Numbered from the stretch's first letter, positions 5,329 to 41,651 are shown. The stretch is 41,651 bases of DNA from Mycobacterium sp. (GCA_031292695.1 JARLGS010000742.1:1-41651); one strand, 5' to 3'. The notes: generated from the sequence alone by a model not told the origin. Numbers and translations: made by a program.

Positions 5329-5353
5329 CATGTCCACCACCTGAAGGAGAATC

Positions 5354-21564: not shown

Positions 21565-21834
21565 TCAACGCCGCATGTAGGTGCGCTCCACCAAGGTGAC
21601 CATCTGCCAACTGGTCTGCGAGTAACGCAACTTCGACACCGGGTGACCCCAGAGGTTGCGTTCGCCCGGACCGGCATCGGCACTGCCGCCGGAGGCGCCG
21701 GCCAGCACTGTCACCAGGGCGGCAATCTCCTCGTCGGACGGATTGCCCTTGACTACCTGGAACAGCGCGGCGGCCGGGGTCTGGGTCTCGGGCTCGTCGG
21801 CCACGTTCGTCTCGGTCACGTTCGTCTCGGTCAC
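21565..21834 (-). CDS. accE5: Acyl-CoA carboxylase epsilon subunit
   Basis: [28 protein letters not shown]...[32 protein letters not shown] overlap with accD5. Confidence 0.9.
21805..21834 (-). repeat. 15-bp perfect tandem duplication at accE5 5' end (GTGACCGAGACGAAC x2)
   Basis: Encodes [10 protein letters not shown] and duplicates the GTG start codon. Confidence 0.85.
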
Positions 21835-23459: not shown

Positions 23460-23474
23460 AGTCGTCGATGTTAA

Positions 23475-23488
23475 CGGTTCTCTAAGAA
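23475..23488 (-). promoter_or_regulatory. TTCTTAGAGAACCG element upstream of accD5
   Basis: Same 14-mer and same 15-nt spacing to the start codon as at accA3. Confidence 0.6.
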
Positions 23489-23517
23489 GATGCGTCAGCG
23501 GGTGCCGGTTCGGCGTT

Positions 23518-24270
23518 TCACGCGGGCTTGCGCAATACCACTGCCGCAAAGCTGGTGAGGGCCGGGACCGGGTGCTTGAGCAGGAACTGGGACTTCGCCC
23601 GCTCCAGCGCGTCCAGCGGCGGGATCACCCTGTAGTAGCCGTGCCCGTAGGTGCCGGCCCACGATTCGACCTGGAAGCCGACACTCTCGTAGCGCTTGAT
23701 GGCCCGCCGCGTGGGGCCGGTGGTCCACCGGTAGTAGGCCGGGAACTTCTCATGGTGTGGGTTCTGCAACCGCCCCGGCTGCAGCTTGCCGATGACGGTG
23801 CGCGCCGCTTGCTCTGGGATGAGCAGGTTCACCACGAACGGGAACGCGAACAGCGTCGGGAAGAAGTGCACCGAAAGGCCGCCCGGGCGAAGCAATTTGA
23901 AGCAATTCTCGTGGAACGTGCGGGCATCGGGCAGGTGCTCGCACAGCATCTTCGAGAACACCAGGTCGTACGCATTCAGCTCATCGTTGATCGGTTTGCA
24001 CAAGTCGGCGACGCGGGTGTGTACCGTGCTGTCGGCCTTGGCCAGCTCGGTGGCGGAGATGTCGATGACCACGCGCTCGTCGGCGAAGTTCCACTCGTCG
24101 CCACCGATGATCGGGTTGGCACCGCCGCCGAGTTCAGCGACGGCCTGCACGCCCTCCCGCTCGGCCAGCGTCCGGACGGAGTCGTCGTAGCCCTGCCAGA
24201 GTGCGTCCAGGTCCTTGTAGTCGACAGCCACGCGTGTACCGCCCATCTGAGCCATCTGAGCACCGTCCAT
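23518..24270 (-). CDS. Class I SAM-dependent methyltransferase
   Basis: [96 protein letters not shown]; start among several possible ATGs. Confidence 0.85.
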
Positions 24271-24717
24271 GTGAGTTCCCGCGCTCGTACAGGTCTCGCC
24301 GGGTCGGCGACCGTCCGCAGCCTGCGCGTAGTTTGCTGGTAAGTCAATATACCTTGCGGTCGCAATGTGCGCCCGTGACTCGGGGCAATCATGGTTCTGG
24401 TTCTGGAATTTGCTGGTCCGGTAGCCGATAACGGGCCGTCCAGGCGTTTGCCGGGACGCGGGTTTTGCCTGGTACAGGCTGCGCCATTGTTCGACTTGAG
24501 GGCGCTTGCCGGCAGCTTTCCGCGCTCCGGGGCGTGCTGGCTTGGGCTTAGCTGGCGGGCTGAGTGCGCACCGCGGCGATGGCATCCTGGACAGGCTCAA
24601 TGCATTTGGCTTGTCATTTGCGTAAGTTTGCGGTTCGATATGCGTGCCCGCTCTTCTCGGGTTCCTGACTTACGACCGCGAAACGATCGGCAGATCGTCG
24701 CAAGGGGATTATCAACA

Positions 24718-25866
24718 GTGCAATCGACGCGCAAATACGACGGAGTGGACGGGCCCAAGGTCGCGATCGCTCACGATTACCTGACCCAGTTCGGCGGCGC
24801 GGAAAAAGTTGTTCTTTCGATGACCAAGGCGTTCCCGGACGCCCCGCTGTACACGATGCTGTACGACCCGGAGCTGACCTATCCGGAGTTTGCCGACCTG
24901 GATATCCGGGTCTCCGCATTGAACAAGGTGGGTCTGGCCCGCAAGTACCACCGGGCCGCGCTGCCGATCTATCCGCTGGTGGCCGAATCGATGCACATCG
25001 ACGCCGACATCGTGCTGGCGAGTTGCAGCGGCTGGTCGCACGGTTTTCACACCCGCGGCAAGAAGCTCATCTATTGCTACAACCCGGCTCGCTGGCTCTA
25101 CCAGACCGAGGCGTATCTCGGGGACAATGCGAGCCTGGCCAAACGAGTCGGCCTCAAACTCACCAAGGGCTACCTGACGGCCTGGGACCAGAAGCAAGCG
25201 CGCTCAGCTGACAAGTACCTCGCCATCTCCACCATGATCAGCGGGTACATCAAGAAGGCCTACGACATCGACTCCGAGGTGATGTTCGCGCCGGTAGCCA
25301 TGTCGCAATCCTACGCGGTCGAGCCTGTCGACGAGATCGCCGACAAGGTCGATCTGACCGATCCGGCCAGCAGCTTCTACCTCGTTGTCTGCCGGCTGTT
25401 GCCGTACAAGAACGTCGACGTCATCGTCCGTGCCTTTGCCGGCACCGACCGGCAACTGGTGGTGGTCGGCAATGGGCCCGAAGCAGAGCGGCTCCGGGCG
25501 ATGAAAACCGACAACGTCACCATGCTCCACAATCTCACCGACGGTCAGATGGCCTGGCTCTACAAGAATTGCCGGGCGCTCCTGTCGTCGAGCTTCGAGG
25601 ACTACGGCTTGACCCCGATCGAGGCCGGGGTGTGGGGCCGGCCCAGTGTCGCGCTGCGGTTCGGCGGTTTCCTGGACACCATCGCCGAAGGCGTCACTGG
25701 TCTGTATTTCGATGAACCGCAACCGAATTCGGTGCGCGAGGCGTTGGATCGATTCGAGTCGGCGGCGTGGGATCCGGAGAAGATCAAGCGGCACGTCGCC
25801 CAGTTCACCGAGGACGCGTTCACCGCTCGACTGCACGAAGCGGTCGATAAACTGGCCGGCGACTGA
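24718..25866 (+). CDS. GT-B glycosyltransferase (GT4-like)
   Basis: KVAIAHDYLTQFGGAEKVVLSMTKAFPDAPLYTMLYDPE...FYLVVCRLLPYKNVDVIVRAFAG...SSSFEDYGLTPIEAGVWGRPSVALRFGGFLDTI; GTG start after aagggg. Confidence 0.9.
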   Translation: MQSTRKYDGVDGPKVAIAHDYLTQFGGAEKVVLSMTKAFPDAPLYTMLYDPELTYPEFADLDIRVSALNKVGLARKYHRAALPIYPLVAESMHIDADIVLASCSGWSHGFHTRGKKLIYCYNPARWLYQTEAYLGDNASLAKRVGLKLTKGYLTAWDQKQARSADKYLAISTMISGYIKKAYDIDSEVMFAPVAMSQSYAVEPVDEIADKVDLTDPASSFYLVVCRLLPYKNVDVIVRAFAGTDRQLVVVGNGPEAERLRAMKTDNVTMLHNLTDGQMAWLYKNCRALLSSSFEDYGLTPIEAGVWGRPSVALRFGGFLDTIAEGVTGLYFDEPQPNSVREALDRFESAAWDPEKIKRHVAQFTEDAFTARLHEAVDKLAGD

Positions 25867-25975
25867 TGCGGAATTCCGCCGCGGCCCGGCACCTTCGCGA
25901 CTGGAGACCGGTAGTTCGGTTCGGGGGCATCGTCATGGCCGTGGGGTCGGCCGCTCAGGAACAGGAGCAACCACG

Positions 25976-27100
25976 GTGACCACGCTCAAGGACTACCGGC
26001 TGGTGTATGTCGGCCCGGCGGATCACGAGACAGCCGTGGGCGACTACGCGGAGAACCTGATCCGCGCGCTGCGGCCGCATGTGGGTGAGCTGGTCGAGCA
26101 TCGCACCCTGGGTCCGGGGTCGGAGAGTGTGCGCGACGTGCTGGGGCACCGTCGCGCGGTGGCGGATCTGGTGGCCGGGGGGCAACCCGGTCGGGTGCTG
26201 GTGCATGCGGAGTTGGCTGCCGGTGCGGTGTCGGCCTTTTGGTCGATCGCGGGGTTGCGTGGGGTGCCGGTGACCGCGACGGTGCATGATCCGCCGCAGG
26301 GGATCTGGTGGCCCGGGCGGACGCGGTTCGTGGCGCGGCACAAATTGGTGATGCACGGTTTGCACTACCCGCTGCGTCCGGTGTCTCGGATGGTCGAGGG
26401 TCTGGTCAACGGTCACCGAACCTTGTTCGCGCTCAGCAAGATCGGGCGGCAGTCCATCGTGGACACCTACCCGCATACCGATGTGGCGTACGTGCCCTAT
26501 CTGGTTTGTGAGCGGCCGAAGATTCGCCCCGTCACCGAGCGTCCGAAGGCGGTGGGCTTTTTCGGGCACGTGTACCGCGGTAAGGGTTTTGAGCAGATTG
26601 CCCGCATTCGGCGGGAGCTGCCGGACGACATTGTCATTCGGGTGGCCGGCCGCGGGACCGAGGCGTTGCCGGGTGGTCCAGGTGTGGAGATCGTGGGCGC
26701 AGTTGATGGTCCGGACGAGGATGCGTTCTTCGATTCGGTGCGAGCCTTGGTGATTCCGTACGGCAAACGGCATTTCTATGCCGAGACCTACCCCGCCTCC
26801 TCGGTCGCGGCGCACGCCATGGCCTACCGCACCCCGGTGGTGTGCACCGACTACGGCTCACTGGCCGAGTTCGGCACCGAGACCGGCGCGATCGTCGTCG
26901 CGATGGACTCCGATGACCCGAAGGCATTGCCCGCGGGGTTCTCTGGGGTGATCGAGTCGCTGCTCAACGATGAGGCCCGGCTGAAGGAACTGGAGCTGAA
27001 CGCCGACCGGACGCGCCAGGCCCGCTCGCCGGAAAACACCGCTGCTGCGTACGCCGCGAAGTGGTCGGAGATGCTGACCCGCCGGGGCCAACTGAGCTGA
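25976..27100 (+). CDS. Glycosyltransferase (GT-B), paralogue A
   Basis: DYRLVYVGPADHETAVGDYAENLIRALRPHVG...KAVGFFGHVYRGKGFEQIARIRRELPDDIVIRVAGRGTE...TPVVCTDYGSLAEF. Confidence 0.8.
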   Translation: MTTLKDYRLVYVGPADHETAVGDYAENLIRALRPHVGELVEHRTLGPGSESVRDVLGHRRAVADLVAGGQPGRVLVHAELAAGAVSAFWSIAGLRGVPVTATVHDPPQGIWWPGRTRFVARHKLVMHGLHYPLRPVSRMVEGLVNGHRTLFALSKIGRQSIVDTYPHTDVAYVPYLVCERPKIRPVTERPKAVGFFGHVYRGKGFEQIARIRRELPDDIVIRVAGRGTEALPGGPGVEIVGAVDGPDEDAFFDSVRALVIPYGKRHFYAETYPASSVAAHAMAYRTPVVCTDYGSLAEFGTETGAIVVAMDSDDPKALPAGFSGVIESLLNDEARLKELELNADRTRQARSPENTAAAYAAKWSEMLTRRGQLS

Positions 27101-27115
27101 AGAGGCTGGGGCACT

Positions 27116-27832
27116 GTGGTTAACTCGGAATTCCGGACGACGGGAGCGAAAAAGGTGATTGGCGAGCCGGCGGCTGCAGACCCGGCGGATGTGGCGCGCA
27201 AACTGGCGGCCGCTCCGACGTTGAAGATGCCACCTGACCCGGAATGGGAACTCGGCGAGGACGGCCGCGTCACCCACTACAAGATGCAGAGCATGAGTGT
27301 TCGCCGCAAGGCGCGCAACCGCATTGGTGAGCTCCTGTTCAACATGTTCGTCACCCACATCCCGTCACACACCATCCGCCAGGGCTTTCTCCGGGCATTC
27401 GGGGCCACCATCGGGGAGTGGTCGACGATCATGCGGGGCACCACGATTCTGGACATCGAGTTCCTCACCATCGGCAACGGCACCACGATCGGTTTCCGCT
27501 GTCTGCTCGACGCGCGGGCCGGGCTGTGGATCGGGGACAACGTCACCATCGCCAGCGATGTCCAAATGCTCGGTGGTGGACATGACATCAACCACCCGGA
27601 CTTCCTGCCGATCCCGATTCCGACGGTGATCGAGGACTACGTGTGGATCGCCAGCCGGGCGATGACGCTGCCCTGCCTGATCGGCCGCGGCGCGGTTGTC
27701 GCGGCGCAGGCACTGGTGGTCAAGGATGTGGCTCCGCTGGACGTGGTGGGCGGCAATCCGGCCAAGCCGTTCGCCAAGCGCAATCCGGATGCATTGGGCT
27801 ACAGCGCAAAGTACCGGCCCCTGTTTTGCTGA
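27116..27832 (+). CDS. Hexapeptide-repeat acyltransferase, paralogue of the gene at 9009
   Basis: FGATIGEWSTIMRGTTILDIEFLTIGNGTTIGFRCLLDARAGLWIGDNVTIASDVQMLGGGHDINHPDF...VWIASRAMTLPCLIGRGAVVAAQALVVKDVAPLDVVGGNPAKPFAKRNPDALGYSAKYRPLF. Confidence 0.88.
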   Translation: MVNSEFRTTGAKKVIGEPAAADPADVARKLAAAPTLKMPPDPEWELGEDGRVTHYKMQSMSVRRKARNRIGELLFNMFVTHIPSHTIRQGFLRAFGATIGEWSTIMRGTTILDIEFLTIGNGTTIGFRCLLDARAGLWIGDNVTIASDVQMLGGGHDINHPDFLPIPIPTVIEDYVWIASRAMTLPCLIGRGAVVAAQALVVKDVAPLDVVGGNPAKPFAKRNPDALGYSAKYRPLFC

Positions 27833-28959
27833 TGCCGGTCGATCTACGTGACTATCGGCTGGTTTACATCGGCCCCAAGGTGGGCCAGACCGCGGTAGGT
27901 GACTACGCCGAGAACTTCGTCAACGCGGTGCAGCCGCTGTTCGGCGAGGTGGTACAGCGTCGCACCTTGGGCCCCGGCGCGGAGACCGTGGCCGAGGTGC
28001 TGGGGCACCGTCGTGCGGTGGCGGATTTGGTGGCCGGTGGACGGCCGGGCCGGGTGTTGGTGCACGCGGAGTTGGCTGCCGGTGCGGTGTCGGCGTTTTG
28101 GTCGATCGCAGGGTTGCGCGGGGTGCCGGTGACGGCCACGATCCACGATCCGCCGCAGGGGATTTGGTGGCCGGCGCGGACGCGGTTCGTGGCGGACCAC
28201 CGGCTGGTGATGCATGGGTTGCACTATCCGTTGCGTCCGGTGTCGCGGATGATCGAAGGTATGGTCAACGGCCGCCGCACGCTGTTCGCACTGAGCGACA
28301 CCGGCCGGCGCGCCATCAAAGACACCTACCCGCACACCGATGTCGCCTATGTGCCGCACCTGGTGTCCGAACGCCCCATGTTGCGGCCGCTCACCGAGCG
28401 GCCGAAGGCGGTGGGTTTCTTCGGGCACGTGTACCGGGGTAAGGGTTTTGAGCTGATTTCCCGAATTCGGCGGGAGTTGCCGGACGACATTGTGATTCGG
28501 GTGGCCGGCCGGGGGACCGAGTCGTTACCGGCTGCTCCGGGCGTGGAGATCGTGGGTCCGGTTGATGGTCCGACCGAGGACGCGTTCTTCGATTCGATAC
28601 GCGCCGTGGTGATTCCGTACGGGAAGCGGCATTTCTATGCCGAGACCTACCCGGCATCCGGATCGGTGGCCCACTCGACGGCCTACCGTACGCCGGTGGT
28701 GTGCACCGACTACGGCTCACTGGCCGAATTGGACGAGCGCACCGGCGCATTGGTGGTCCATACCCGCGACTACGCGCCGGAGACGGTAGCGCCGGCCCTG
28801 GCCACCGCGATCGTGTCTCTGGTCGACGACGATGAGCGCCTGGCGCAGTTCGGTCGCGACGTCGACGACTATCGCGCGGCCTGTTCCGGCCCTCGTACGG
28901 CCGAGGCTTTCGGCCGGGTGTGGACGGACATGCTGTCCCGAGTATCTGCGAGTGTGTGA
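27832..28959 (+). CDS. Glycosyltransferase (GT-B), paralogue B
   Basis: Close paralogue of 25976-27100: DYRLVYIGPKVGQTAVGDYAENFVNAVQPLFGE...KAVGFFGHVYRGKGFELISRIRRELPDDIVIRVAGRGTES. Confidence 0.8.
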   Translation: MPVDLRDYRLVYIGPKVGQTAVGDYAENFVNAVQPLFGEVVQRRTLGPGAETVAEVLGHRRAVADLVAGGRPGRVLVHAELAAGAVSAFWSIAGLRGVPVTATIHDPPQGIWWPARTRFVADHRLVMHGLHYPLRPVSRMIEGMVNGRRTLFALSDTGRRAIKDTYPHTDVAYVPHLVSERPMLRPLTERPKAVGFFGHVYRGKGFELISRIRRELPDDIVIRVAGRGTESLPAAPGVEIVGPVDGPTEDAFFDSIRAVVIPYGKRHFYAETYPASGSVAHSTAYRTPVVCTDYGSLAELDERTGALVVHTRDYAPETVAPALATAIVSLVDDDERLAQFGRDVDDYRAACSGPRTAEAFGRVWTDMLSRVSASV

Positions 28960-30244
28960 CCTGGCTACCCCCGAAGCACCCGAAGCGCCCGGTCGCAATC
29001 TGGCGAAGACCCTGATCTCGCTGGTCTGGATCTACGGTGGCCGCGGGGTGGGTCTGCTGTGGACGCTGGTTCTGGTGCACCGCCTGGGTGTTGCGGAGTA
29101 CGGCCTGTACGCCATGGCGACCGTGCTGAACGGCATCGTCGGCAACACCGTGGACAATCCCTTCGCGGTCCGCGCTATCCGGGAATCTGAGGAACATTTC
29201 CACCGGGAGCGCACCATGCGCTACCTGGTCGCGGTGGTTCTGGTCGGCACCGGGCTGGCCGCCTTCCAGTTCAACTACGTGGTCGGCTTCGGCCTCATGG
29301 TGGCCGGCGGCGAGATCGGCCTGAACGTGGTGAAGAGCCAGTTCGCGCGGGATGGTCACCCGGACAAGGTGTACCGATTCGACACCGCGCGCCAGTTCTC
29401 CAGCGCCGGGATCGCCGCGGTGTACCTGTACACCGCGGCACATCCGACGCTGACCGTTGCGACGCTGGTGTACTGCACGCCGTACGTGGTGATCATGCTG
29501 GCGGGCGCACGGTTGGCGATCGGACACCGGCCCGCGCTGCCCGGCCCGCCCAAGCTGATCGCCGCACTGAGCGGCGAAATGCTCGGCACCACCCTCTATC
29601 TGGGCGGCGACGTGCTGCTGCTCGGCACGCTGGTGGATACCAAGGCCGCGGGCTACTACCAGTTGGCGTGGGTAGTGGCCGCTGCGGTGGCGGCAGCCGG
29701 ACAGTCGTTCGGCATGACTTACCACGAGCCGCTCCGGAAGAGCGGTGGTGACCCGGCGGCCGGCCCGCCGCTGCGGAACACGCTGCGCATGGCCGCACTC
29801 GGCGGCTCGGTGCTGCTGATCATCGGCGGGTGCCTGTTCGCGGCCGGAGCGCCCACCCAGCTGGCCACGACGATGGTGATCATGGGCGGATTCGCCGCGC
29901 TGCGCATCGTCATCTTCGTGTTCCAGGTGATCCTCTACACGCAGCGTCGCGACGTCTTCCGGCTCACCATCGCAGTCGGACTGGTACCGGTGAAGCTCGG
30001 TATGGTGGCGGCACTGACGCCATTCGGTGCCATTGGTGCGGCGATCGCGGCTACCGTCGCCGACGCGATGATGCTGGCGGGATTCACCTGGGCGGTCTAC
30101 CGGCCACGGCCGGTAGAGCCGGAAGAGCTGGTAGAGCCGGTAGATGCGGCGTCGGAAGATTCGGCCGAAGCCACAGAGACGACGACGATGGGGACGGATG
30201 CGGTGCCGTCCGAGCCGTCGGCCGGACGGCCGGAGGAATCATGA
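28952..30244 (+). CDS. Polysaccharide flippase (Wzx / MATE-like, MVF superfamily)
   Basis: Many TM segments; KTLISLVWIYGGRGVGLLWTLVLVHRLGVAEYGLYAMATVLNGIVGNTVDNPFAVRAI...; acidic C-terminal tail. Confidence 0.8.
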   Translation: MCDLATPEAPEAPGRNLAKTLISLVWIYGGRGVGLLWTLVLVHRLGVAEYGLYAMATVLNGIVGNTVDNPFAVRAIRESEEHFHRERTMRYLVAVVLVGTGLAAFQFNYVVGFGLMVAGGEIGLNVVKSQFARDGHPDKVYRFDTARQFSSAGIAAVYLYTAAHPTLTVATLVYCTPYVVIMLAGARLAIGHRPALPGPPKLIAALSGEMLGTTLYLGGDVLLLGTLVDTKAAGYYQLAWVVAAAVAAAGQSFGMTYHEPLRKSGGDPAAGPPLRNTLRMAALGGSVLLIIGGCLFAAGAPTQLATTMVIMGGFAALRIVIFVFQVILYTQRRDVFRLTIAVGLVPVKLGMVAALTPFGAIGAAIAATVADAMMLAGFTWAVYRPRPVEPEELVEPVDAASEDSAEATETTTMGTDAVPSEPSAGRPEES

Positions 30245-31410
30245 CGGTACCCATGGCAGGGGCCAAGCCGAAGACTGCGTTCATCCTGTCGAAAGACCCG
30301 GTGCTGGAACACACCGGTGACATCGCGCTGGCCCGGATGCTCATGCAGTTGGCTGCCGACTCCTTCGACGTGTCGGCCATCTCCCTTTCACCGGAAACCG
30401 GCACCGTCACCGCCGATGTCATCCCCGGCGGAATGCCGCTGGACCGGGTGCACAAGCCTGCTGTCCGCCCGCACCGCCTGCTCATCGACTCACTGCGGCT
30501 GCGGCGCAGTCTGGTGCACGTCCGTTTCGACACCGACGAGCTGGTGCGCGCCATCGACCGCAGTGACGCCGACGTGTTCGTCGCCGAGCACAGCTATATG
30601 GCCGAATCTTTCTTCCGCAGCAGGCATTTCGGGAGCAAGCGCCTCGTCATCAACACCAACGTGAGCGAATCGCTGGTATGGCGGGCGTCCCGCGGAGTGC
30701 TCGGGCGGATCGACGAACCACGGCTGATCCGCGATGAACTGCGGGTTGCGCGGGCGGCCGACGGCGTCGGCACCTACGACGCCGAGGAAGCTGACTACTA
30801 CCGCGACAACGGCGTCCGCGACGCCCGCTTCATGGACATCACCATGCCGCCGGGCGAGCAGGTCGACGTCGCGAACACCCCACCTCGGTTGGTGTTCATG
30901 GGCACCAGGGACTGGCCACCCAATCAGGAGGGCTTCCTGCGGGCGCTGCAGCTGTGGCCGCGGATTTCAGCGGGTATCGAAGGTGCCGAACTGTGTGTGA
31001 TCGGTGCCAAGAAACCGGGTGCACCCGACCCGGCTTACCCCGACGGGGTGCGCGACCTGGGATTCGTCGATGACCTCCGGGCATTTCTCAGCACCTGCCG
31101 GGCGCTGATCGCGCCGATCAGCACCGGTGGGGGAGTCCGGGTGAAGCTGTTGGACACCTTCCGGATCGGGCTGCCGGCAGTCGCAACCACCGCGGCGATC
31201 GGATCGCTCGGGCCGATCTTCGGGCTGGAGCCGCTGGACGACGACGCGGCGTTCGTCGCGGAGTGCCGGCGCCTGCTCACCGACGTCTCAGCTGCAGCCG
31301 AACTCGGGAACCGGTTGTTCCAGGTCAACGGGCAACGGTGGCAAGACCGGTTACCGCACAAGGCGGTGGCCGACCTGCTGCGCGGCACCCGGCAGGATCA
31401 GCTCGGGTAG
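30241..31410 (+). CDS. Glycosyltransferase (GT-B, GT4-like)
   Basis: ...RLVFMGTRDWPPNQEGFLRALQLWPRISAGIEGAELCVIGAKKPG...DLGFVDDLRAFLSTCRALIAPISTGGGVRVKLLDTFRIGLPAVATTAAIGSL; ATGA overlap with flippase. Confidence 0.85.
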   Translation: MTVPMAGAKPKTAFILSKDPVLEHTGDIALARMLMQLAADSFDVSAISLSPETGTVTADVIPGGMPLDRVHKPAVRPHRLLIDSLRLRRSLVHVRFDTDELVRAIDRSDADVFVAEHSYMAESFFRSRHFGSKRLVINTNVSESLVWRASRGVLGRIDEPRLIRDELRVARAADGVGTYDAEEADYYRDNGVRDARFMDITMPPGEQVDVANTPPRLVFMGTRDWPPNQEGFLRALQLWPRISAGIEGAELCVIGAKKPGAPDPAYPDGVRDLGFVDDLRAFLSTCRALIAPISTGGGVRVKLLDTFRIGLPAVATTAAIGSLGPIFGLEPLDDDAAFVAECRRLLTDVSAAAELGNRLFQVNGQRWQDRLPHKAVADLLRGTRQDQLG

Positions 31411-32945
31411 ACCTTCATGCCCACCCACGGTATCCACGCCATGTAGCCGTGCTGGAAGTCCACCCGGTTGGTGCCGTTGTCGTAGTGCTCGTCGCTGGTG
31501 GCCAAACCCAGTTGCGGCACATAGGCCTGGGCGAAGCCCTGCGAGGCCCAGTGCGCGCCGGTCTCCTGCGACCACCACACCCGGAATGGCTGGGCTGCCG
31601 TGAAGTCCTGGAAGCCGCCCGCGAACGGCCCGGCCGGCAGCGCCTGGCGCTGCAGTGCGAGATCGGCCACCGCACGTGGCGAGGACACGTACCCGGTCGG
31701 CATCTCGAACAAGGTATTCACCATCCGCACCTGAGCCCACACCTGCGGGGTGGCCCGGAACACCGGACTGAGCACGGCACCGTGCGCCGGATCGGTGATC
31801 TGCGAAAATCGCTGGAATTCAGGTGATTTCGGTACACCCGCGCTGATTGCGGTACGCAGATCGGCTTGTGCCGGCTTCGGCGACCAATCGCTGCGGTAGA
31901 CGCCGATGGTGGCGTCGGGCGCGGTGCTGCCCGTCTGTCGGTCGCGGGTGGTGTAGACCAGCAGTGGGCCGGTGTACGGCATCTCCTGCCACTTCGTGTA
32001 CATGTCCTTCAAGTAGGTGGTCTGGGTGGCTTCGCTGACCGACGAGGTGGGCTCGCCGTACTCGGTGGCCCAGATTCGCTTGTCGTCGTCGCCGTTGTCG
32101 AGCATCAACTGGCGCATCTGAACTAGTTGCAGAACAGGCGAATTCGCGACAAGCATGCCGTCCGAGAACTTCAGGGTGTACTGATACGGGTGAAACGACA
32201 GCGCGTCGAAATTACCCTTGGCGCCCGCGCTGTACATGCCGGAGAGGAAGCGCACCGGGTTGATCGCCCAGGTGCCCCAGTCGATCACCGCACCCAGCGC
32301 AGCGCCGATCACGGTCACCGACGGATCGACGGCCTTGATCCGGGGATAGGCGGCCTTGAGCAGGCTGGTATAGCCCGCCGGGTCCGGTGCCGGGGTGTAG
32401 AAGAACACCGCGTTGGGCTCGTTCCAGATTTCGTAGGCGGCGATCTTCCCCTTGTAGCGGGTGGCCACTTTCGCGGCGAATTCACCATAAGCGTCCGGTG
32501 ACGCCGGCTGGCTGCTGAGCGGAAATCCGCCGGGCGACACGGCCCACGCGGGAGTGGAGTTGATGAACCCGATGATCGACATATTTTGTGCCGCAGCGGC
32601 ATTCACGATCTTGTCGACGTTGGTCCAATCGAGCTGCCCCGGCAGGCCCTCGACGCCGGCCCACGGAATCATCAGCCGGATGGTGTTGACGCGGGTCGCC
32701 GCCATCAGTGCGATGGTGTGGGTCACGTCCGCAGCGGACATGCCGTAGATGTCGGAGTCGGCAAAGCCGATCGTGGTCGGCAGGTTGACCACATTGGCGC
32801 GCTCGGCCACGTTGATTCGTTTGGGGGCATCGGCGGGAATGCCGGTCAGTGCGATAAGGGTGCAGACCACACCGCCGGCCACGGCTGACGCCGCACTGGA
32901 AAATCGCCGGGGGGCACGGCGTGGCGGGCGCTGGCCGGGCATCAC
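31398..32945 (-). CDS. Secreted glycoside hydrolase (clan GH-A, GH39/GH5-like) with C-terminal LGFP-like repeats
   Basis: Acid/base motif AAYEIWNEPN, nucleophile region IWATEYGEPT; C-terminal WWSQETGAHWASQGFAQAY...LGLATSDEH...FQHGYMAWIPWVG. Confidence 0.8.
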   Translation of the reverse strand: MMPGQRPPRRAPRRFSSAASAVAGGVVCTLIALTGIPADAPKRINVAERANVVNLPTTIGFADSDIYGMSAADVTHTIALMAATRVNTIRLMIPWAGVEGLPGQLDWTNVDKIVNAAAAQNMSIIGFINSTPAWAVSPGGFPLSSQPASPDAYGEFAAKVATRYKGKIAAYEIWNEPNAVFFYTPAPDPAGYTSLLKAAYPRIKAVDPSVTVIGAALGAVIDWGTWAINPVRFLSGMYSAGAKGNFDALSFHPYQYTLKFSDGMLVANSPVLQLVQMRQLMLDNGDDDKRIWATEYGEPTSSVSEATQTTYLKDMYTKWQEMPYTGPLLVYTTRDRQTGSTAPDATIGVYRSDWSPKPAQADLRTAISAGVPKSPEFQRFSQITDPAHGAVLSPVFRATPQVWAQVRMVNTLFEMPTGYVSSPRAVADLALQRQALPAGPFAGGFQDFTAAQPFRVWWSQETGAHWASQGFAQAYVPQLGLATSDEHYDNGTNRVDFQHGYMAWIPWVGMKVYPS

Positions 32946-33015: not shown

Positions 33016-34440
33016 TCAGTGTGCCGCAGCCATGGGAATTTGCTGCGAATTCTCTCGGGCGTGTCGCGCTAGCTCGGCTCTGCGCAATCGGTCGACGTGC
33101 ACGAGGAATGCCAGCAAAATGGAGAATTCCAGCGTCGCCGGTGGGATACCGACCACTGGATGGTCGAGTTCGAGCGCCACCACGCAGAATCCGATGAAGA
33201 CGCCGCCGTACACCGCCCACGGGAAATGATTGGAGCGGATCGCCCGGTAGCTCATGATGCAGCCGATCAGCATGATCGCGAAGAACGCCAGGCCGGTGAA
33301 GATACCGCCGCGGTAGATGGTCAGCAATGGTGCGTTCGACACGTGGTTCAGCACGAATGCATAGTTGCCATCCCGGAATTCGAGCCGGTTCCACCCTTTT
33401 CCGAACAACCAATAACCCGCCATGGTGTCGGGGAATTCGCGGATGGCATCAATTCGAGAAGTGGACCCGACGTCGTCGCTGCTGAACGAATGTACGAACC
33501 TGATTCGGACTTCCGGAACCGAGGCTGCAGCGATGAACGCGGTGACCATCGCCGTGAGGGCGAGCGCACGGTCCCGGGACCGCATGGTGTGGAAGGCCAG
33601 AACCAGCAATATGCCGCCGACGACGGTGAACATGCCGGCCCGACTCAGCGTGAGCAGCAGCGAAACGCCGAAGATCGATTCGATCGCGATGCGCTGCCAA
33701 CCGGTCATCACCACGATGCACACGACGATCGCCACCACCAGGGCAATGCCTTCGGCGTTGGGGTCCACCGCCGTGCCGCCGAGGCGCATCGATCGCTCGA
33801 CACCGCCGTCGGTGTACGCGAAGCGGGTCACGGTGTATTTCGCCGCGTAGCCGAAAATCCGGAGATATTTGAACGACGTCTGGTTCGGGTCGAAGGCCAC
33901 GATGTAGAGGCCGAACACGGCGTTGAACAGGGTCGCGTAGACAAAGATGCGGCCGAACTTCTGTGCGTGCCCCCAGGACAGGCCACTGAGGGCCAGCGCG
34001 ACCAACGTGACGGCGCACCACCGGACGATCTGAATGACGTCACCGATACCGGTGCCCGTGATTGCGACCGACAGTATTGAGGTCAGCACCAGGGCGATGA
34101 TCGCCCATTCCAGCGGGTGGATCGGCCGGGCCAATCGGGGATGCACGAACAACGCGACCACTGCGCCGAATGCGAAGGGCAGATACAACGGCACGTGAAC
34201 GCCGGGGAAATACCCGAATGGCAGGGCGCCGATAACGACGGCCAATCCGTACAGGAACCACAGCGGGTGCCGCAATCCGACATAGATTCCGACCACGAGC
34301 GCAGTAACGGCGACAACGCCCAACAAAGTGATCTTGCCGAATGACGTCGCCAACCAGACCAAACCCACGATCCCGGCCAGAATCCCGGCCGATGACTTAA
34401 GATTGCCGAGTTGACCCAAATGGGCGTTCATAGCGACCAT
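33016..34440 (-). CDS. O-antigen ligase / Wzy-like polymerase
   Basis: Polytopic; GGTAVDPNAEGIALVVAIVVCIVVMTGW...FGVSLLLTLSRAGMFTVVGGILL...GKGWNRLEFRDGNYAFVLNHVSNAPLLTIYRGGIFTG. Confidence 0.85.
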   Translation of the reverse strand: MVAMNAHLGQLGNLKSSAGILAGIVGLVWLATSFGKITLLGVVAVTALVVGIYVGLRHPLWFLYGLAVVIGALPFGYFPGVHVPLYLPFAFGAVVALFVHPRLARPIHPLEWAIIALVLTSILSVAITGTGIGDVIQIVRWCAVTLVALALSGLSWGHAQKFGRIFVYATLFNAVFGLYIVAFDPNQTSFKYLRIFGYAAKYTVTRFAYTDGGVERSMRLGGTAVDPNAEGIALVVAIVVCIVVMTGWQRIAIESIFGVSLLLTLSRAGMFTVVGGILLVLAFHTMRSRDRALALTAMVTAFIAAASVPEVRIRFVHSFSSDDVGSTSRIDAIREFPDTMAGYWLFGKGWNRLEFRDGNYAFVLNHVSNAPLLTIYRGGIFTGLAFFAIMLIGCIMSYRAIRSNHFPWAVYGGVFIGFCVVALELDHPVVGIPPATLEFSILLAFLVHVDRLRRAELARHARENSQQIPMAAAH

Positions 34441-34561
34441 GCTCTCAGGTCGACCAGCTAAGCTCAAGCGGGTTGCTCGGCCCGTCGCGCGCCTGATGGT
34501 GGGTGCGGTGCCAGACCGCTATTCTGTGAGCCGTCGCATAGCTGAACTAAGGGGCACGTCC

Positions 34562-36139
34562 TTGGAGATCAAAGAATACCTGCGGATTTTCGGCCGGTAC
34601 TGGTGGGCGATCGTGGTCCTGGCGGTTGTCGGCGCGGCCGCGGGCTGGGCGTGGTGGGAGTTTGGCACCCGCGAATACCAGTCCAGCGCGACGCTGTTCG
34701 TGGCAACCCAGAACGGCACCTCGGTCACCGAGGCCTACCAGAACAACCTGTTCTCCCAGGACCGGGTGAATTCCTACGCCAGCCTGGCCACCAGCGAGCA
34801 GGTCGCGGCCCGCGCGGTGGATCAGTTGAAGGCCAACATCTCGGCCAGCGAGTTGCGGTCGAAGATCACCGCGATTCCGGTGCCGAAGACGGTGTTGCTG
34901 CAGGTATCTGTGACCGATTCGGACCCGGGCCAGGCCCAGACCTATGCCAGCGCGGTCGCGGACCAGCTTGCCGGCCTGGTCGGGGAGCTGGAGACCTCGC
35001 GCCGGGGCGGCAGCCCGGCGGCCCGCGCGATCGTGGTGGATGTGGCCGGCTATCCGACCAAGCCCCTCGGCTATTCGATGATCACCAAGATCGGCTTCGG
35101 CGCCGCCGGTGGTATCGCGCTCGGCATCCTGGCGGCAATCGTGCTCGGAATCGTCGACCGGCGGGTGCGCGGCCGCGAGCGGGTGGCCGACGCCAGTGGG
35201 TCGCTGCTGATGGGTGCGCTGCCCGCCGACCCTGCCCGGAGCAAGGCGGCAGTGGTCGATCTGGCCTCCGAAAGTGCCTATGCGGAGTCCCTTCGCGAGC
35301 TCCGAAATAATTTGCGGTTCACCGTCCCGGCAAACCGTGATGAGCCGGCTCGAGTGATCGCGGTGACCAGTCCGTCGGCATCCGACGGACGCACCACGCT
35401 GGCCATCGACCTGGCCACGGTGCTCGCCGAGACCGGCAAGCCGGTGGTACTCGTCGACGGTGACCTGCGCAACCCGGCGGTTGCCGCACGACTGGACCTC
35501 AGCCCGGCGGCCCGGCAGGGCGCCGCGGACCGCGGCCTGAGCACCGTGCTGGTCGGCGAAAACACCGTGGCTGAAGGCCTGATCGCCGAGGTGCCGGTCG
35601 GCCAGCATCGAATCTCGTTGTTGCCCGCCGGCCCGACCACCACGCGTCCCGGTGAGCTGTGGGCCGGCGACCACGCCGAGAGCCTTTTCGCTCAACTCGC
35701 GGAGCAGTTCGACTATGTCGTGGTCGACACGCCGCCGCTGGGCAAGTACAACGACGGTGCGGTCGTGGCCGCTCTGTCCGACGGTGCCTTGCTGCTCGGG
35801 CGCATCCGTCGCACCACCAGCGGGGCGCTGACCCGTGCGGTGCAGACGCTGAAGTCCGCCAACGCGGTGCTGATCGGGTCCGTCGCCACCGACGAACCGG
35901 CTCACTTCAAGGTCAACATCGGTGGCGCCGCTGGTGCGAAGTCGACCGGGGGCAAGAAGGCGGCCAAGAAGTCCGCGCATGAGAAGCCGGGTGCCGCGAA
36001 GTCGGCTCCGAAGCAGGCCGCCGGCCAGGACACGGGCACCCCGGCCCCGGCCCGCGTCGCGACCGGCGCCGCCGGTCCGGATCCCCCTGAAGTGATCCGG
36101 CCGATCGAGCCCGGTACCCATCCCGACGAGGCGCGCTGA
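34562..36139 (+). CDS. Wzz-domain / CpsD-like (BY-kinase fold) polysaccharide co-polymerase with degenerate Walker A
   Basis: N-terminal LEIKEYLRIFGRYWWAIVVLAVVGAAAGW Wzz TM; AVTSPSASDGRTTLAIDLATVLAETGKPVVLVDGDLRNP; YVVVDTPPL; basic Lys/Ala-rich C-tail; TTG start after aagggg. Confidence 0.85.
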   Translation: MEIKEYLRIFGRYWWAIVVLAVVGAAAGWAWWEFGTREYQSSATLFVATQNGTSVTEAYQNNLFSQDRVNSYASLATSEQVAARAVDQLKANISASELRSKITAIPVPKTVLLQVSVTDSDPGQAQTYASAVADQLAGLVGELETSRRGGSPAARAIVVDVAGYPTKPLGYSMITKIGFGAAGGIALGILAAIVLGIVDRRVRGRERVADASGSLLMGALPADPARSKAAVVDLASESAYAESLRELRNNLRFTVPANRDEPARVIAVTSPSASDGRTTLAIDLATVLAETGKPVVLVDGDLRNPAVAARLDLSPAARQGAADRGLSTVLVGENTVAEGLIAEVPVGQHRISLLPAGPTTTRPGELWAGDHAESLFAQLAEQFDYVVVDTPPLGKYNDGAVVAALSDGALLLGRIRRTTSGALTRAVQTLKSANAVLIGSVATDEPAHFKVNIGGAAGAKSTGGKKAAKKSAHEKPGAAKSAPKQAAGQDTGTPAPARVATGAAGPDPPEVIRPIEPGTHPDEAR

Positions 36140-36146
36140 CATTCCC

Positions 36147-37433
36147 GTGACGGGTCAGATTGGATTGCGGCGCACCGTGATGGCACTGGCAGCAGTGCTG
36201 GTCACCGTCGCCGCGTGTGGGCAGTCCGGCCCGGTGCCGCCGAGGCCGGGCGATGACGTGCGTCCGACCCGGGACCTGAAACCGATGTTCCCGGGTGCCG
36301 AGGCGTTGCCCGCACCGGACCTCACCGACGACGGGCCGGGTTCGCTGGTCGAGGTCAAGCCGGTGAAGGGAGACCCGAGCTTCGACGAGGCCGGTGTCAC
36401 CGCCGCGCGCATCGTGTACCGGTCGACCAGTGGCCTGGACGGCCACCCCATCGAGGCCAGCGCGCTCATCGCGGTGCCGTCGGGTCCGCCGCCGAAGGGG
36501 GGCTGGCCGATCATCTCCTTCGGCCACGACACCACCGGCGTGCTGCCCAAGTGCGCACCGACACTGGCTCCGCAGTTCTGGGGTTATTCAAACGGTATGT
36601 CGGTGTACCTGCGCCGTGGCTTCGCCATCGCGCTGCCGGACTACCAGGGCCTGGGGATCGATCCGGGCCCCGGCGGTCGTCAGCACTCCATGCTGGACGT
36701 GCCCAGCCTGGGAAACAACATGATCGACGCCGCGCGCGCCATCCACCGCGCCGTCCCCACCACCAGCACCAACTGGGGGGCGCTCGGGGCCGGTGAGGGC
36801 GGTCTGGCCGCTTGGGCGGCTGCCGAGCGCGCGGGGGCGTACGGCGCCGGCATGAACATGGTGGGAGCGGTGGCGGTCAACCCGATCGCCGACCTCGCGC
36901 CGCTGGCCGATCCGGACCGGATCGCCGCGCTGTCCACCCCCGACCAGTTCCGATTGCAGATCCGGATGTTGCAGAGCCTGGCCACGATCCAGCCGGACTT
37001 CGACCTCGACGCGCACCGCTCGCCGAAGCTGAAGGATCAGTGGGACCTGTTGGTCGACTGTGCGCCGAAAGATGTTGCCGCCGCGCAGCTGGCGCTGAAT
37101 CAGTTGACTCCCAAGGATTTTCAGGCGAAGGATGCCGCTGCTGAGGCGGATTTGAAGCGCCGGCTCAGCGCCGTCGCGCTGCCGAGTGCCTATGCGGGAC
37201 CGAATGATCCGCCGGTGCTGGTGGCATTCGGCACGGCTGATCCGGTCAATCCGGCCGCCGGGATTCTGCTCGCCACCGCGTCCGCGTGCGGGCGGGGCGA
37301 ACAGATCGTGGTGATGCGAGGGGTCGGTGACACCGGCCAGATCAACGATCAGACGATGCAGAACGCATTGGCTTGGCTGCAGGCGCGATTCGATGGCGAG
37401 CGGCTGGCCGACGTCTGTGTGGGGGCGACGTGA
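36147..37433 (+). CDS. Lipase-family (secretory LIP-like) lipoprotein, predicted catalytically inactive
   Basis: Signal + lipobox VAAC; GGWPIISFGHDTTGVLPKCAPT; nucleophile elbow reads GAGEG not GxSxG. Confidence 0.8.
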   Translation: MTGQIGLRRTVMALAAVLVTVAACGQSGPVPPRPGDDVRPTRDLKPMFPGAEALPAPDLTDDGPGSLVEVKPVKGDPSFDEAGVTAARIVYRSTSGLDGHPIEASALIAVPSGPPPKGGWPIISFGHDTTGVLPKCAPTLAPQFWGYSNGMSVYLRRGFAIALPDYQGLGIDPGPGGRQHSMLDVPSLGNNMIDAARAIHRAVPTTSTNWGALGAGEGGLAAWAAAERAGAYGAGMNMVGAVAVNPIADLAPLADPDRIAALSTPDQFRLQIRMLQSLATIQPDFDLDAHRSPKLKDQWDLLVDCAPKDVAAAQLALNQLTPKDFQAKDAAAEADLKRRLSAVALPSAYAGPNDPPVLVAFGTADPVNPAAGILLATASACGRGEQIVVMRGVGDTGQINDQTMQNALAWLQARFDGERLADVCVGAT

Positions 37434-38122
37434 TCTCCCCGTACGGCGTACCGCGGGTGCGCGACTACGTGCTGTTCGTCAAGAACAGCTGGGTGCTGGT
37501 GCTCGTCACCACGGCAGTGTGCGCGGCGGTGGGGTGGTGGAGCTGGCACGAAGCCAAGCCGGTGTACCAGTCTTCCGCGTCGGTGTTCGTCAGAACGGAG
37601 GGCAGTGCGTCGCCGCTCGACGCGTACTACGGCGATTCCAACATGATCGGGTTGATGGAGACCTACCGCCAATTGGCCACCAGCGCCCAGGTCACCTCGC
37701 CGATCATCCAGAAGCTCGGCCTCATCGAGTCCGAAAAGGAGCTCGCCGCCCGGATTCTGATATTTCCCGGTGCCACCGCGCTGATGACCATCACCGTCAC
37801 GGGCGCCGACGCCGACCAGACCAGCCAGATCGCGCACGAGGTGGCCAACAACATGGTCGCGGTGTCCACCCGGCTGGCGGTCGTTGCCGGCACCGGTGCG
37901 GGCCTGGCCATCGTCGATGACGCCAGTCCGGCCCAGCGGGTAGGTGGGATGTGGTCATTCATCCTGACCGCGACCGTGCTCGGTTTCGCGCTCAGCGTGG
38001 TCGCGGTGCTCGCCCGTGCGCTGATCCTTGGGCGGGTGCAGAGCCGCCGGCACCTCGAACGGTTGGTGTCGGATGCCTGCGCCGCGGTACCGGCCGGGGC
38101 GCAGGTAGGCGAGACCCCATGA
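37430..38122 (+). CDS. Wzz-like chain-length determinant/co-polymerase without kinase domain
   Basis: VPRVRDYVLFVKNSWVLVLVTTAVCAAVGWWSWHEAKPVYQSSASVFVRTEGSASPLDAYYGDSNMIGLMETYRQLATSAQV... and C-terminal TM; GTGA overlap. Confidence 0.82.
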   Translation: MISPYGVPRVRDYVLFVKNSWVLVLVTTAVCAAVGWWSWHEAKPVYQSSASVFVRTEGSASPLDAYYGDSNMIGLMETYRQLATSAQVTSPIIQKLGLIESEKELAARILIFPGATALMTITVTGADADQTSQIAHEVANNMVAVSTRLAVVAGTGAGLAIVDDASPAQRVGGMWSFILTATVLGFALSVVAVLARALILGRVQSRRHLERLVSDACAAVPAGAQVGETP

Positions 38123-39426
38123 TCAGGACGCCGTGGTCGCGGCGGCCGCAGGGCCGGATTGTGGCCGGCGTGCTCGCCGCGGCTTGCCTGGCCGTACCGG
38201 CCTGCCAGAGCAGTTCACCGCCGAAATCGATTGGGCCGGGCGCGGTTTCCGGGATCGATCTGAAGCCCGACACGACCGGCGCCGGTTCGGTTCCCGGTGC
38301 GCTGGTGTCGGCATCGACCTTTTCGACTGTGGATATGCGGCTCAAGTCGGCGTCGTCGCTGGCGGCCCGCATCGAATACACGTCGACTTCGGGTATCACC
38401 GGTGCGCACACCGAGGTGTCGGGTTCGGTGTTCGTGCCGATCGGGACACCCCCGCAGGGCGGCTGGCCGATCATCGTCTTCGGGCACGCGACGACCGGCA
38501 TGCACCGCGACTGCGGGCCGTCGGCGTCGTCGACCCTGCTCGGGTTGTCGGAACCGATCACCGCGCTGGTCAAGGCGGGCTACGTAGTGAGTCTGCCTGA
38601 CTACCAGGGCCTCGGCCCGGGCACCGACGGTCACCCGTACGCCGACGCCACTACGGTCGGATACAACGTCATCGATTCCGCGCGTGCGGTGCACCGCCTG
38701 GTGCCGGAGTCGTCGGAGCGCTGGCTGGCCGTCGGGGTGTCGCAGGGCGGCCAGGCCGCTTGGGCCGCAAACGAACTCAACGCGCGATACGGCACCGGCC
38801 TGAATCTGGTGGGCACCGTCAGTCTGTCGCCGGCCAGCGATCTCACCGGTCTGGCCGCCGGGGCGGCCGCGGGCACCCTGTCTACGGAGCAGGCGGCGTT
38901 GCTCCAGCTGATCCTGGCCGCACTGGCGAAGGAGAACCCGTCGCTGAACCTGGACGACTACCGGCGCGGCTCGGTTGCCGAGCACTGGAATGTGCTGCAG
39001 TCCTGCCGTTCCGAGGACGCCCAGGATCGCGCCGCCGCGGTCGCCAAGATCACTCCCGACGAGGTGCGGCCTGCCAGTACGCAGGCGGAGGCGACGCTGG
39101 AAGGGCTGCTGGCCAAGCGCAGCCTGCCCAAGGATCCGACTTCGGCGCCCATGCTCGTGCTGTATGGCGGCCAGGACACCCTGCTGTCGCCGGACTGGAC
39201 GAACAAGGCGCTCGGCGCCGCGTGTCGGCTCGGCGACGACATCGACATCATGTTCCAGCCGAACAAGGGACATGCCGACATCGATGTGACGGCGTCCTTC
39301 GACTGGATCAAGGACCGGTTCGACGGCGTGCCCGCGCCGAACAGCTGCGCGTCCTTCGAGTCCGCACCGGGCGCCCGCGACCACGCGGCCGCCGGCGCCA
39401 CCGCGGCCCCCGGAGCCGGACAGTGA
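38119..39426 (+). CDS. Lipase-family (secretory LIP-like) lipoprotein, catalytic motif intact
   Basis: Signal/lipobox LAVPAC; GHATTGMHRDCGPS; WLAVGVSQGGQAAWAAN; GGQDTLLSPDW; NKGHADID. Confidence 0.85.
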   Translation: MIRTPWSRRPQGRIVAGVLAAACLAVPACQSSSPPKSIGPGAVSGIDLKPDTTGAGSVPGALVSASTFSTVDMRLKSASSLAARIEYTSTSGITGAHTEVSGSVFVPIGTPPQGGWPIIVFGHATTGMHRDCGPSASSTLLGLSEPITALVKAGYVVSLPDYQGLGPGTDGHPYADATTVGYNVIDSARAVHRLVPESSERWLAVGVSQGGQAAWAANELNARYGTGLNLVGTVSLSPASDLTGLAAGAAAGTLSTEQAALLQLILAALAKENPSLNLDDYRRGSVAEHWNVLQSCRSEDAQDRAAAVAKITPDEVRPASTQAEATLEGLLAKRSLPKDPTSAPMLVLYGGQDTLLSPDWTNKALGAACRLGDDIDIMFQPNKGHADIDVTASFDWIKDRFDGVPAPNSCASFESAPGARDHAAAGATAAPGAGQ

Positions 39427-40652
39427 ACGCCCCGCTGTCGGTGCCGGCCCGCGTTCGGGTCCGGATCATCGGCCTGGACGGGGCCCGAGGACTGTCGTGC
39501 CTGGGCGTGGCGGTCATGCACGTCACCGGCCACTATTCGCCGCACACGGCCTACCACTGGAAGACGAACCTCTTCGGGCTGTCGCTGATCTTCTTCTACG
39601 CGCTCAGCGGGTTCCTGCTGTTCCTGCCGTATGTGCGCAACCTGATCGAGAATCGCGACCTGCCCAGCACCGCGAATTTCGCGGTACACCGGATCGCCCG
39701 GATTCTGCCCGGCTACCTGGTGATCTTTCTGCTGTGCAACTACCTGTTGCAGATCGTCTACATCCAGAACGCGTCGCTGCAGCCCACCCGCACCGAAGAC
39801 GGCACCGGGATGATCACCGACCCGTGGCAGCTCATCGCCAACCTCACGCTGACGCAGTCCTACTTCCCGAAATACTTCCAGACGGGGCTGAACCCGTCGT
39901 GGTCGCTGACGCTGGAATACGCCTTCTACCTTTCCATTCCGCTGCTGGGCATGCTGCTGTTCGCCATCGGCCGGCGGTCGCGGATGCGGCCGTGGCTGAT
40001 CGTGTCCCTCGGGCCGGCGTTGCTGATCGCCCTCGGATTCACCGGCCGGGCCTTCGTGCCGTGGATGATCTCGGCGTTGCACCTCACCGATCCCACCGCG
40101 ATCAACTGGGGTGCCAACTGGGTGGCCGTCTATACCAAGACGTTCCTGACCAACTCGGACACCTTTGCCTTCGGGATGGCTGCCGCGGTTCTGGTGGTGG
40201 CCATGGAGCACAACGCGATAGCGGAGAAGCTCAGCCGCCGGGTCCGGCGGTCCAGTTTCCTGGCGATGTTCCCGGTAGGCGTGGTGATGCTGGGGCTGAT
40301 CGCGCTGGCCAACCCGTATGCCACCTCTGCTCTGGCGCTGCTGTGCGCGTTGTCGATCTTGGTGATCGTCGCGCCGCTGTTCCGCGGTGAGCGGTCCGGG
40401 CTGGCCGAGCTGCTGGACACTGCGCCCTTCCGCTTCGTCGGCAAGGTCTCGCTGTCGGCCTATCTCTGGCACTTCCCGCTGATGCTGCTGCTCGGGCGTT
40501 GGGGCCTGATGGCCAGTGACAGCCTGCCCGGCATGCTGCGCAACGTGGCGTTGGTGCTGGTGGTGACGCTGGCAGTATCCACGGTCACCTACTACGTGGT
40601 GGAGGAGCCGGTGATGAAGCTCGCCAGGCGGTACCGCACCAGGTGGTCCTGA
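39423..40652 (+). CDS. Acyltransferase-3 family membrane O-acyltransferase
   Basis: RIIGLDGARGLSCLGVAVMHVTGHYSPH...FFYALSGFLLFLPYVRNL...NPSWSLTLEYAFYLSIPLLGMLL...VGKVSLSAYLWHFPLMLLLGRWG; GTGA overlap. Confidence 0.92.
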   Translation: MNAPLSVPARVRVRIIGLDGARGLSCLGVAVMHVTGHYSPHTAYHWKTNLFGLSLIFFYALSGFLLFLPYVRNLIENRDLPSTANFAVHRIARILPGYLVIFLLCNYLLQIVYIQNASLQPTRTEDGTGMITDPWQLIANLTLTQSYFPKYFQTGLNPSWSLTLEYAFYLSIPLLGMLLFAIGRRSRMRPWLIVSLGPALLIALGFTGRAFVPWMISALHLTDPTAINWGANWVAVYTKTFLTNSDTFAFGMAAAVLVVAMEHNAIAEKLSRRVRRSSFLAMFPVGVVMLGLIALANPYATSALALLCALSILVIVAPLFRGERSGLAELLDTAPFRFVGKVSLSAYLWHFPLMLLLGRWGLMASDSLPGMLRNVALVLVVTLAVSTVTYYVVEEPVMKLARRYRTRWS

Positions 40653-41651
40653 ATGCGCCGTGCGGTCCAATGGGTTGCCGCGGTCTGCGCAGTACTCCTG
40701 GTCGTGGGCTCGCTGCCGGCCATGTGGAAGGTGGGTAGCTGGGCCCTGGACCGGCTGCGTCACGGTGGCGCCGGTGACTCCGTGCCGATCCGGACCGCGG
40801 ATCTGACGGGGTCCGGGCCGGGCAGCCTGATCAGCGCGATGACCATGCCCGTGCTGACCAACTCGGTGGACGGCAAGGACCTGCAGGCGGCCCGGGTGAT
40901 CTACCGGTCCACCTCGGGAGACACCGGTGACGCGACGGTGGTGTCGGGATCGGTGTTCACCCCGCTGGGCAAGGCCCCGGACGGCGGCTGGCCGGTGGTC
41001 GCACTGGCCCACGGCACCACCGGCATCGACCAGCCGTGCGCGCCGTCGCTCTCGGCGAATCTGCTGGGCTTCGTCACGGCAGTGCAGGGGCTGGCGAACT
41101 TGGGCTTCGCAGTGGCGGTTGCCGACTACCAGGGACTGGGCGCGCCCGGCGTGCACCCGTACACCGACAGCCGTACCGCGGGCCGCAATGTCATCGACTC
41201 GGTCCGGGCCCTCCGCCACACCTTCCGCGATATCTCCACCCGCTGGGCCGTGTTCGGCGGCTCGCAGGGTGGTGGTGCGGCGTGGGCAGCCAACGAAGAG
41301 GCGCGGAGCTATGCCCCCGAGCTCGACCTGGTGGGTGTGGCGGCCAGCGTGCCGTCCGCCGATGTGGCCGGCATCGTCGACAAAGCCACTGCCGGCACCA
41401 TGACCAAGGATCAGGAGGCGGCGTTCCAGGCGATCATCGAGTCGCTGGCCCGGCTGCATCCCGACCTGAACCGGGACGACTACCGGCGGGGTGCTGCGGC
41501 CAAGTACTGGAAGGTGTTGTCGGCGTGCTCCGGACCGGACGTCGCGTACCGCGCCGCCGCCATCGATGCGATGCAGCCGACCGACCTGGCACCGGCCGAC
41601 CCGGCCGCGGCGGCCCGGCTGCGCCGCTATCTGCAGGCCTGGGCCCTGCCG
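40653..41651 (+). CDS. Lipase-family (secretory LIP-like) exported protein, third paralogue, truncated by window edge
   Basis: N-terminal TM/signal; GGWPVVALAHGTTGIDQPCAPS; WAVFGGSQGGGAAWAANEEA; no stop before window end. Confidence 0.85.
   Translation, partial: MRRAVQWVAAVCAVLLVVGSLPAMWKVGSWALDRLRHGGAGDSVPIRTADLTGSGPGSLISAMTMPVLTNSVDGKDLQAARVIYRSTSGDTGDATVVSGSVFTPLGKAPDGGWPVVALAHGTTGIDQPCAPSLSANLLGFVTAVQGLANLGFAVAVADYQGLGAPGVHPYTDSRTAGRNVIDSVRALRHTFRDISTRWAVFGGSQGGGAAWAANEEARSYAPELDLVGVAASVPSADVAGIVDKATAGTMTKDQEAAFQAIIESLARLHPDLNRDDYRRGAAAKYWKVLSACSGPDVAYRAAAIDAMQPTDLAPADPAAAARLRRYLQAWALP

Follow-up and report, generated by a model that had tools for sequence, protein, structure and literature searches.

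Six genes at the end of a Mycobacterium sp. contig (the window, 41,651 nt in full) form a compact array in the order WzzK-Lip1-Wzz2-Lip2-AT3-Lip3. Gene calls and Pfam searches on the window gave all six genes the expected domains and bore out the original prediction of a Wzz/CpsD-like protein, a lipase, a Wzz protein, a lipase, an acyltransferase-3 and a lipase (Table 1). Overlaps of 4 nt (GTGA, ATGA and GTGA) join lip1 to wzz2, wzz2 to lip2 and lip2 to at3. The predicted overlaps were present at these junctions and ended there: 7 nt separate the wzzK stop from the lip1 start, and at3 and lip3 abut with zero overlap. The start codon of wzzK is TTG; an alternative upstream ATG is possible at 34439. 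Lip1, Lip2 and Lip3 all score above the cut-off of the LIP profile. As proposed earlier, the three lipases carry export signals and two of them lipoboxes, a good one in Lip1 (VAAC) and a weaker one in Lip2 (VPAC). The Lip3 N-terminus resembles a signal anchor. Wzz2 has a short extracytoplasmic domain between two membrane segments, the PCP layout. Its match to Pfam Wzz is weak (E 1.8e-4, 22.2 bits, just under the cut-off of 25.5), and it also matches TIGR01006 (E 2.4e-10). AT3 is without a fused SGNH domain.

Table 1. Features of the array, of the surrounding gene cluster and of its continuation. Positions are those of the window unless a locus is named.
Feature	Position	Strand	Assignment and basis
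Mrr-type restriction endonuclease domain protein	4613-5404	-	stand-alone between metabolic genes
accD5	21831-23549		cluster boundary
Glycosyltransferases and hexapeptide-repeat transferase	24391-31410 (genes 24391-25866, 25646-27100, 27116-27832, 27643-28959, 29830-31410)	+	EPS cluster; Pfam, relatives
wzx flippase	28832-30244	+	AF2 model
GH5-type glycanase with LGFP repeat	31398-32945	-	Pfam; beside wzy
wzy-like polymerase	33016-34467	-	divergent from wzzK; Wzy_C E 1.4e-8, 35.1 bits, cut-off 31.7
wzzK	34562-36139	+	co-polymerase fused to BY-kinase-like ATPase; Pfam Wzz and AAA_31
lip1	36147-37433	+	predicted exported lipoprotein, LIP/CALA fold; LIP PF03583
wzz2	37430-38122	+	second co-polymerase, kinase-less; 4-nt overlap with lip1 and with lip2
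lip2	38119-39426	+	predicted exported LIP/CALA-family protein, weak lipobox, triad intact
at3	39423-40652	+	membrane O-acyltransferase, acyltransferase-3 family; Acyl_transf_3 E 1.6e-24
lip3	40653-41651	+	signal-anchored LIP, first 333 aa; contig end cuts gene
SASA-type (SGNH) carbohydrate esterase	L212 12626-13600	-	directly 3' of lip3
SASA-type (SGNH) carbohydrate esterase	L069 15540-16514	+	directly 3' of lip3
birA	L212 8290-9108		cluster boundary

The neighbouring genes belong to exopolysaccharide (EPS) synthesis. The position of the wzy-like gene is conserved among relatives. O-antigen ligases also carry a Wzy_C domain, and a ligase is therefore a possible identity of this protein. The flippase gene had no Pfam match above the cut-off; the top structural matches of its AlphaFold model (pLDDT 86) were WzxE and MurJ. 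The glycanase beside wzy is often conserved, being seen in many relatives, and possibly trims or releases EPS. The Wzx-fold protein, the Wzy_C domain, the LGFP glycanase and an initiating transferase identify the locus as Wzx/Wzy-type. A polyketide synthase or a dedicated lipid-donor gene was not identified in the cluster. Overall, the locus belongs to a known kind, the Wzx/Wzy EPS clusters. Like the loci with PCP/BY-kinases of the CpsCD, Wzc and EpsG types, it has glycosyltransferases, a Wzx-fold flippase, a Wzy_C polymerase, Wzz co-polymerases, an initiating sugar-phosphate transferase and an O-acyltransferase. Unlike them, it intersperses its co-polymerase genes with two to five paralogous PF03583 lipases, and its co-polymerase ATPase has neither the Walker-A Lys nor the Tyr tail.

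The unit extends past position 41,651 and is larger than the six genes first proposed: one more lipase and a carbohydrate esterase belong to it, as does the initiating transferase. The remainder of lip3, which encodes its catalytic Asp and His, was found at the extreme end of contig C478 (locus L212) of the same genome, G000. It is followed by the SASA-type esterase, the initiating sugar-phosphate transferase, lip4 as a fourth LIP gene, and birA. The families of esterase and transferase were assigned on the copies of M. llatzerense; the C478 transferase is 94% identical to the M. llatzerense copy. The L069 gene matches the initiating polyprenyl-phosphate sugar transferase model TIGR03025 with 413 bits. 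AT3 is without an SGNH domain of its own, and the SASA-type esterase may serve it as a separate partner.

The cluster is bounded by accD5 and birA. A clean insertion site between these genes was rejected: they are directly adjacent in five of 30 birA loci inspected, and most loci have intervening genes. The neighbours of birA vary widely among the genomes of the genus, so the interval looks like a variable region rather than a clean empty site. An assembly chimera was also rejected, as single-contig genomes have the identical gene order and C478 resumes lip3 within a few bases of the window end.

Conservation of the gene order was studied by a Wzz2 search of 198 genomes of the genus and subsequent mapping of the genes at the loci. 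The array was present in 23 genomes, source genome included. A collection of named genomes provided 34 loci with the array, from Mycolicibacterium, Williamsia and one Rhodococcus; Mycolicibacterium carriers include M. llatzerense, M. elephantis, M. neoaurum, M. frederiksbergense, M. canariasense, M. bacteremicum, M. moriokaense and M. aurum. The original prediction, which had named an absence of conservation as its refutation, withstood this check. Chance co-location of the array genes was rejected because the array recurs across loci. A LIP gene lies directly 3' of wzzK in all 34 named loci, and wzz2 is placed between the first and second LIP gene in 29. In L099 and L100, wzz2 is missing and three LIP genes follow wzzK, possibly the older arrangement. 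The number of LIP genes in view varies from two to five per locus. The presence of AT3 varies too: several arrays of the named loci showed no at3, which may thus be dispensable for the module. The overlaps at lip1/wzz2, wzz2/lip2 and lip2/at3 recur in L068-L071, L073, L074 and L076; the remaining loci have most, not all, of the ATGA/GTGA overlaps.

Signal sequences suggest an export of the LIP proteins. A lipobox-like motif was present in 34 of 35 first LIPs, in 32 of 35 second LIPs and in few later ones (named loci and window). Lip1 and Lip2 are thus mostly predicted lipoproteins, and the array was found solely in genera bearing mycolic acids. Both observations would fit a ligase system that tethers the finished polysaccharide to mycomembrane lipids, with several paralogues working in series, an idea already contained in the original prediction. 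Such a function is improbable, as the genes scanned comprised no mycolyltransferase or LCP-type ligase and the analysis gave no connection between LIP proteins and mycolates.

The kinase domain of WzzK deviates from canonical BY-kinases, which have a Walker-A Lys and a Tyr-rich C-terminus. In the motif alignment, the Walker-A Lys is replaced by Arg277 (codon 35390-35392), and the Tyr-rich tail is missing. Among the array WzzK proteins of Mycolicibacterium and Williamsia, the Arg is present in all but L099 and a Tyr-rich tail in none. L099 and the Rhodococcus locus L100 have also lost the Lys, with residues other than Arg in its place. Walker B is kept in most sequences and Walker A' in part. 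An order-wide search separated these proteins from other co-polymerase kinases. The eight best-scoring WzzK proteins all combined a Walker-A Arg and a LIP neighbour with a C-terminal stretch of 60 residues free of Tyr. Among the next 22 proteins, not one had a LIP within 1.5 kb; the Lys was seen in 21 (in L155 the motif went unread), and 20 had at least one tail Tyr. WzzK, labelled Wzz/CpsD-like in the original prediction, is probably a pseudokinase co-polymerase and not a usual CpsD-type autokinase. The Arg falls short of proving inactivity, with Walker B largely retained. A precedent is the BY pseudokinase EcpK, an EPS scaffold in Myxococcus (PMC12004946). EcpK, of the EcpK/EpsV system of Myxococcus xanthus, and WzzK are both BY-kinase-like proteins of an EPS locus that lack the Tyr tail and at least some catalytic residues. 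EcpK is a stand-alone protein without any Walker motif, whereas the ATPase of WzzK is fused to a co-polymerase and mostly has Walker B, variably Walker A', and no Walker-A Lys.

The lipase paralogues are not equivalent, and Lip1 stands apart. The Ser-Asp-His triad reads Gly-Asp-Gly in the window: the nucleophile Ser is replaced by Gly216 (36792-36794), Asp365 is kept, and the His is replaced by Gly397 (37335-37337). The triad of Lip2 is intact (Ser208, 38740-38742; Asp353, 39175-39177; His385, 39271-39273), as is that of Lip3 with the Asp and His supplied by C478. The intactness of the Lip4 triad was read in relatives. In the genus set, 14 of 23 genomes have a Lip1 with the Ser to Gly exchange plus loss of the His, and the other nine have an intact triad. 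The first LIPs of the named loci and the window divide into 17 with Gly, 16 with Ser-Asp-His and two with other losses (35 in total): L099 has Ala at the nucleophile position and L098 has lost the His only. The second to fifth LIPs have an intact triad in 88 of 91 cases, and the three exceptions include the window lip3, cut by the contig end. The catalytically dead Lip1 sequences form one clade with a support of 1.0, so the main loss was probably a single event. L099 (first and second LIP) and L088 (third LIP) suggest independent losses. At L099 6090-11000 (Mycolicibacterium sp. 018/SC-01/001), the first two of three LIPs after wzzK have an Ala for the Ser and have lost the His.

Comparison with four close relatives yielded dN/dS values of 0.11-0.16 for Lip1, 0.21-0.26 for Lip2 and 0.10-0.20 for Lip3. 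Purifying selection on Lip1 matches that on the active paralogues in strength. The Lip1 model (pLDDT 86) has a complete Candida-antarctica-lipase-A (CALA) type fold, and its 12 best PDB matches were exclusively CALA-type lipases, Xanthomonas LipA or a Legionella relative. The array lipases share with CAL-A/CpLIP2 and Xanthomonas LipA the fold, the nucleophile elbow and, in the later lipases, Ser-Asp-His. They differ as bacterial tandem paralogues encoded in an operon, with a Lip1 without Ser and His and with activities that are predicted. The loss of Ser and His, the purifying selection and the complete fold indicate that Lip1, a predicted pseudolipase, is kept for a role other than Ser-His catalysis. 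These data also bear on the idea that the lipases are nutritional or stress enzymes that share the operon by chance. Solo LIP genes are indeed common across Mycobacteriales, but the lasting linkage with 4-nt overlaps, the duplication inside the array and the conservation of a dead Lip1 under purifying selection make this explanation very improbable.

The array is best read as the part of a Wzx/Wzy-type EPS locus of mycomembrane bacteria that provides co-polymerases and decorates the polymer. We consider it about an even chance that it encodes a polymerase-docked unit that tailors acyl groups outside the cytoplasm, with an O-acylated, perhaps fatty-acylated EPS as product. WzzK would be a scaffold without tyrosine phosphorylation. 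Lip1, membrane-tethered and non-catalytic, may use the glycan or the Wzz proteins as its docking site, and may recruit or regulate the active lipases or bind the acylated polymer. Docking on Wzz is suggested by gene order and overlap only. At the membrane, short acyl chains would be attached by AT3. Lip2-Lip4 and the co-encoded SGNH-type esterase would act on ester-linked acyl groups, either transferring or removing them. Most likely these would be long fatty acyl chains, taken from a glycolipid and passed to the extracytoplasmic polysaccharide, which would yield an amphiphilic, fatty-acylated EPS. The intact triads of Lip2-Lip4 are equally compatible with hydrolysis and transfer.

Three precedents make acyl tailoring the best reading, ahead of deacylation as its main rival. 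Few lipases perform acyl transfer in water; the CAL-A/CpLIP2 enzymes do so, using long-chain donors (PMC7383625). In M. tuberculosis, the periplasmic alpha/beta-hydrolase Chp2 transesterifies acyltrehaloses (PMC4183827). Rhodococcus EPS bears ester-linked palmitate and stearate (PMC12786566). Chp2 (Rv1184c) resembles the array lipases as a membrane-anchored alpha/beta-hydrolase on the periplasmic side beside a cell-envelope export pathway; it differs by its cutinase-like family, its glycolipid substrate in acyltrehalose synthesis and the lack of a polysaccharide locus. The acidic EPS of Rhodococcus represents, within Mycobacteriales, the product type predicted for the array, and the literature searched named no genes for its acylation.

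The rival explanation sees the active lipases as carbohydrate esterases that edit the EPS during export by stripping off the acyl groups added by AT3, with no fatty acid involved. The closest solved relative of Lip1 and Lip2 in sequence is LipA of Xanthomonas oryzae, a cell-wall-degrading esterase, acetyl xylan esterases come next in the Lip1 fold search, and a SASA-type carbohydrate esterase is present in the same cluster. Deacylation would place one acylase and two to five deacylases in a single cluster, several LIPs persist in arrays where at3 was not seen, and the main reputation of the CAL-A-related enzymes is for using acyl donors with long chains (PMC7383625). Stripping is thus the less likely function, though a possible one. 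The acyl-tailoring unit retains the periplasmic system for acyl groups on a nascent polysaccharide that was originally predicted and is in agreement with the conserved gene order, with changes in three parts: the role of Lip1, the kinase and the extent of the unit.

Carried by environmental mycobacteria and some of their relatives, the array points to an undescribed mechanism by which a surface polysaccharide gains or loses acyl groups, perhaps fatty acids. In the open-licence literature, searches on lipases in Wzz/Wzy loci, mycobacterial PF03583 proteins and Mycolicibacterium EPS clusters yielded nothing relevant and no published description of the array, which is weak evidence of novelty. 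Three features are undescribed to the extent searched: the array of lipases, the pseudolipase conserved in it and the pseudokinase signature linked to it. Fatty-acylated EPS of Mycobacteriales has been described chemically, and a lipase-fold array tied to polymerase genes is a concrete, testable gene candidate. Tentatively, a dedicated extracytoplasmic complex of pseudokinase co-polymerase, pseudolipase adaptor and several CALA-type acyltransferases may fatty-acylate a Wzx/Wzy polysaccharide during polymerisation, which would supply the biosynthetic route so far missing for the fatty-acylated EPS of mycomembrane bacteria.

With WzzK lacking the Walker-A Lys and a Tyr tail and Lip1 often lacking Ser and His, the module combines several intact lipases with a predicted pseudokinase and, frequently, a pseudolipase. 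Lip1 offers a natural experiment: in a defined clade, and mainly on one occasion, a lipase lost its catalytic Ser and His, and it has since been retained under selection, beside a co-polymerase whose kinase likewise looks inactive. Judged from their residues, pseudolipases recur in the LIP family. Solo LIPs outside the array, at L097 9809 and L109 9836, have the nucleophile replaced by Gln or Gly.
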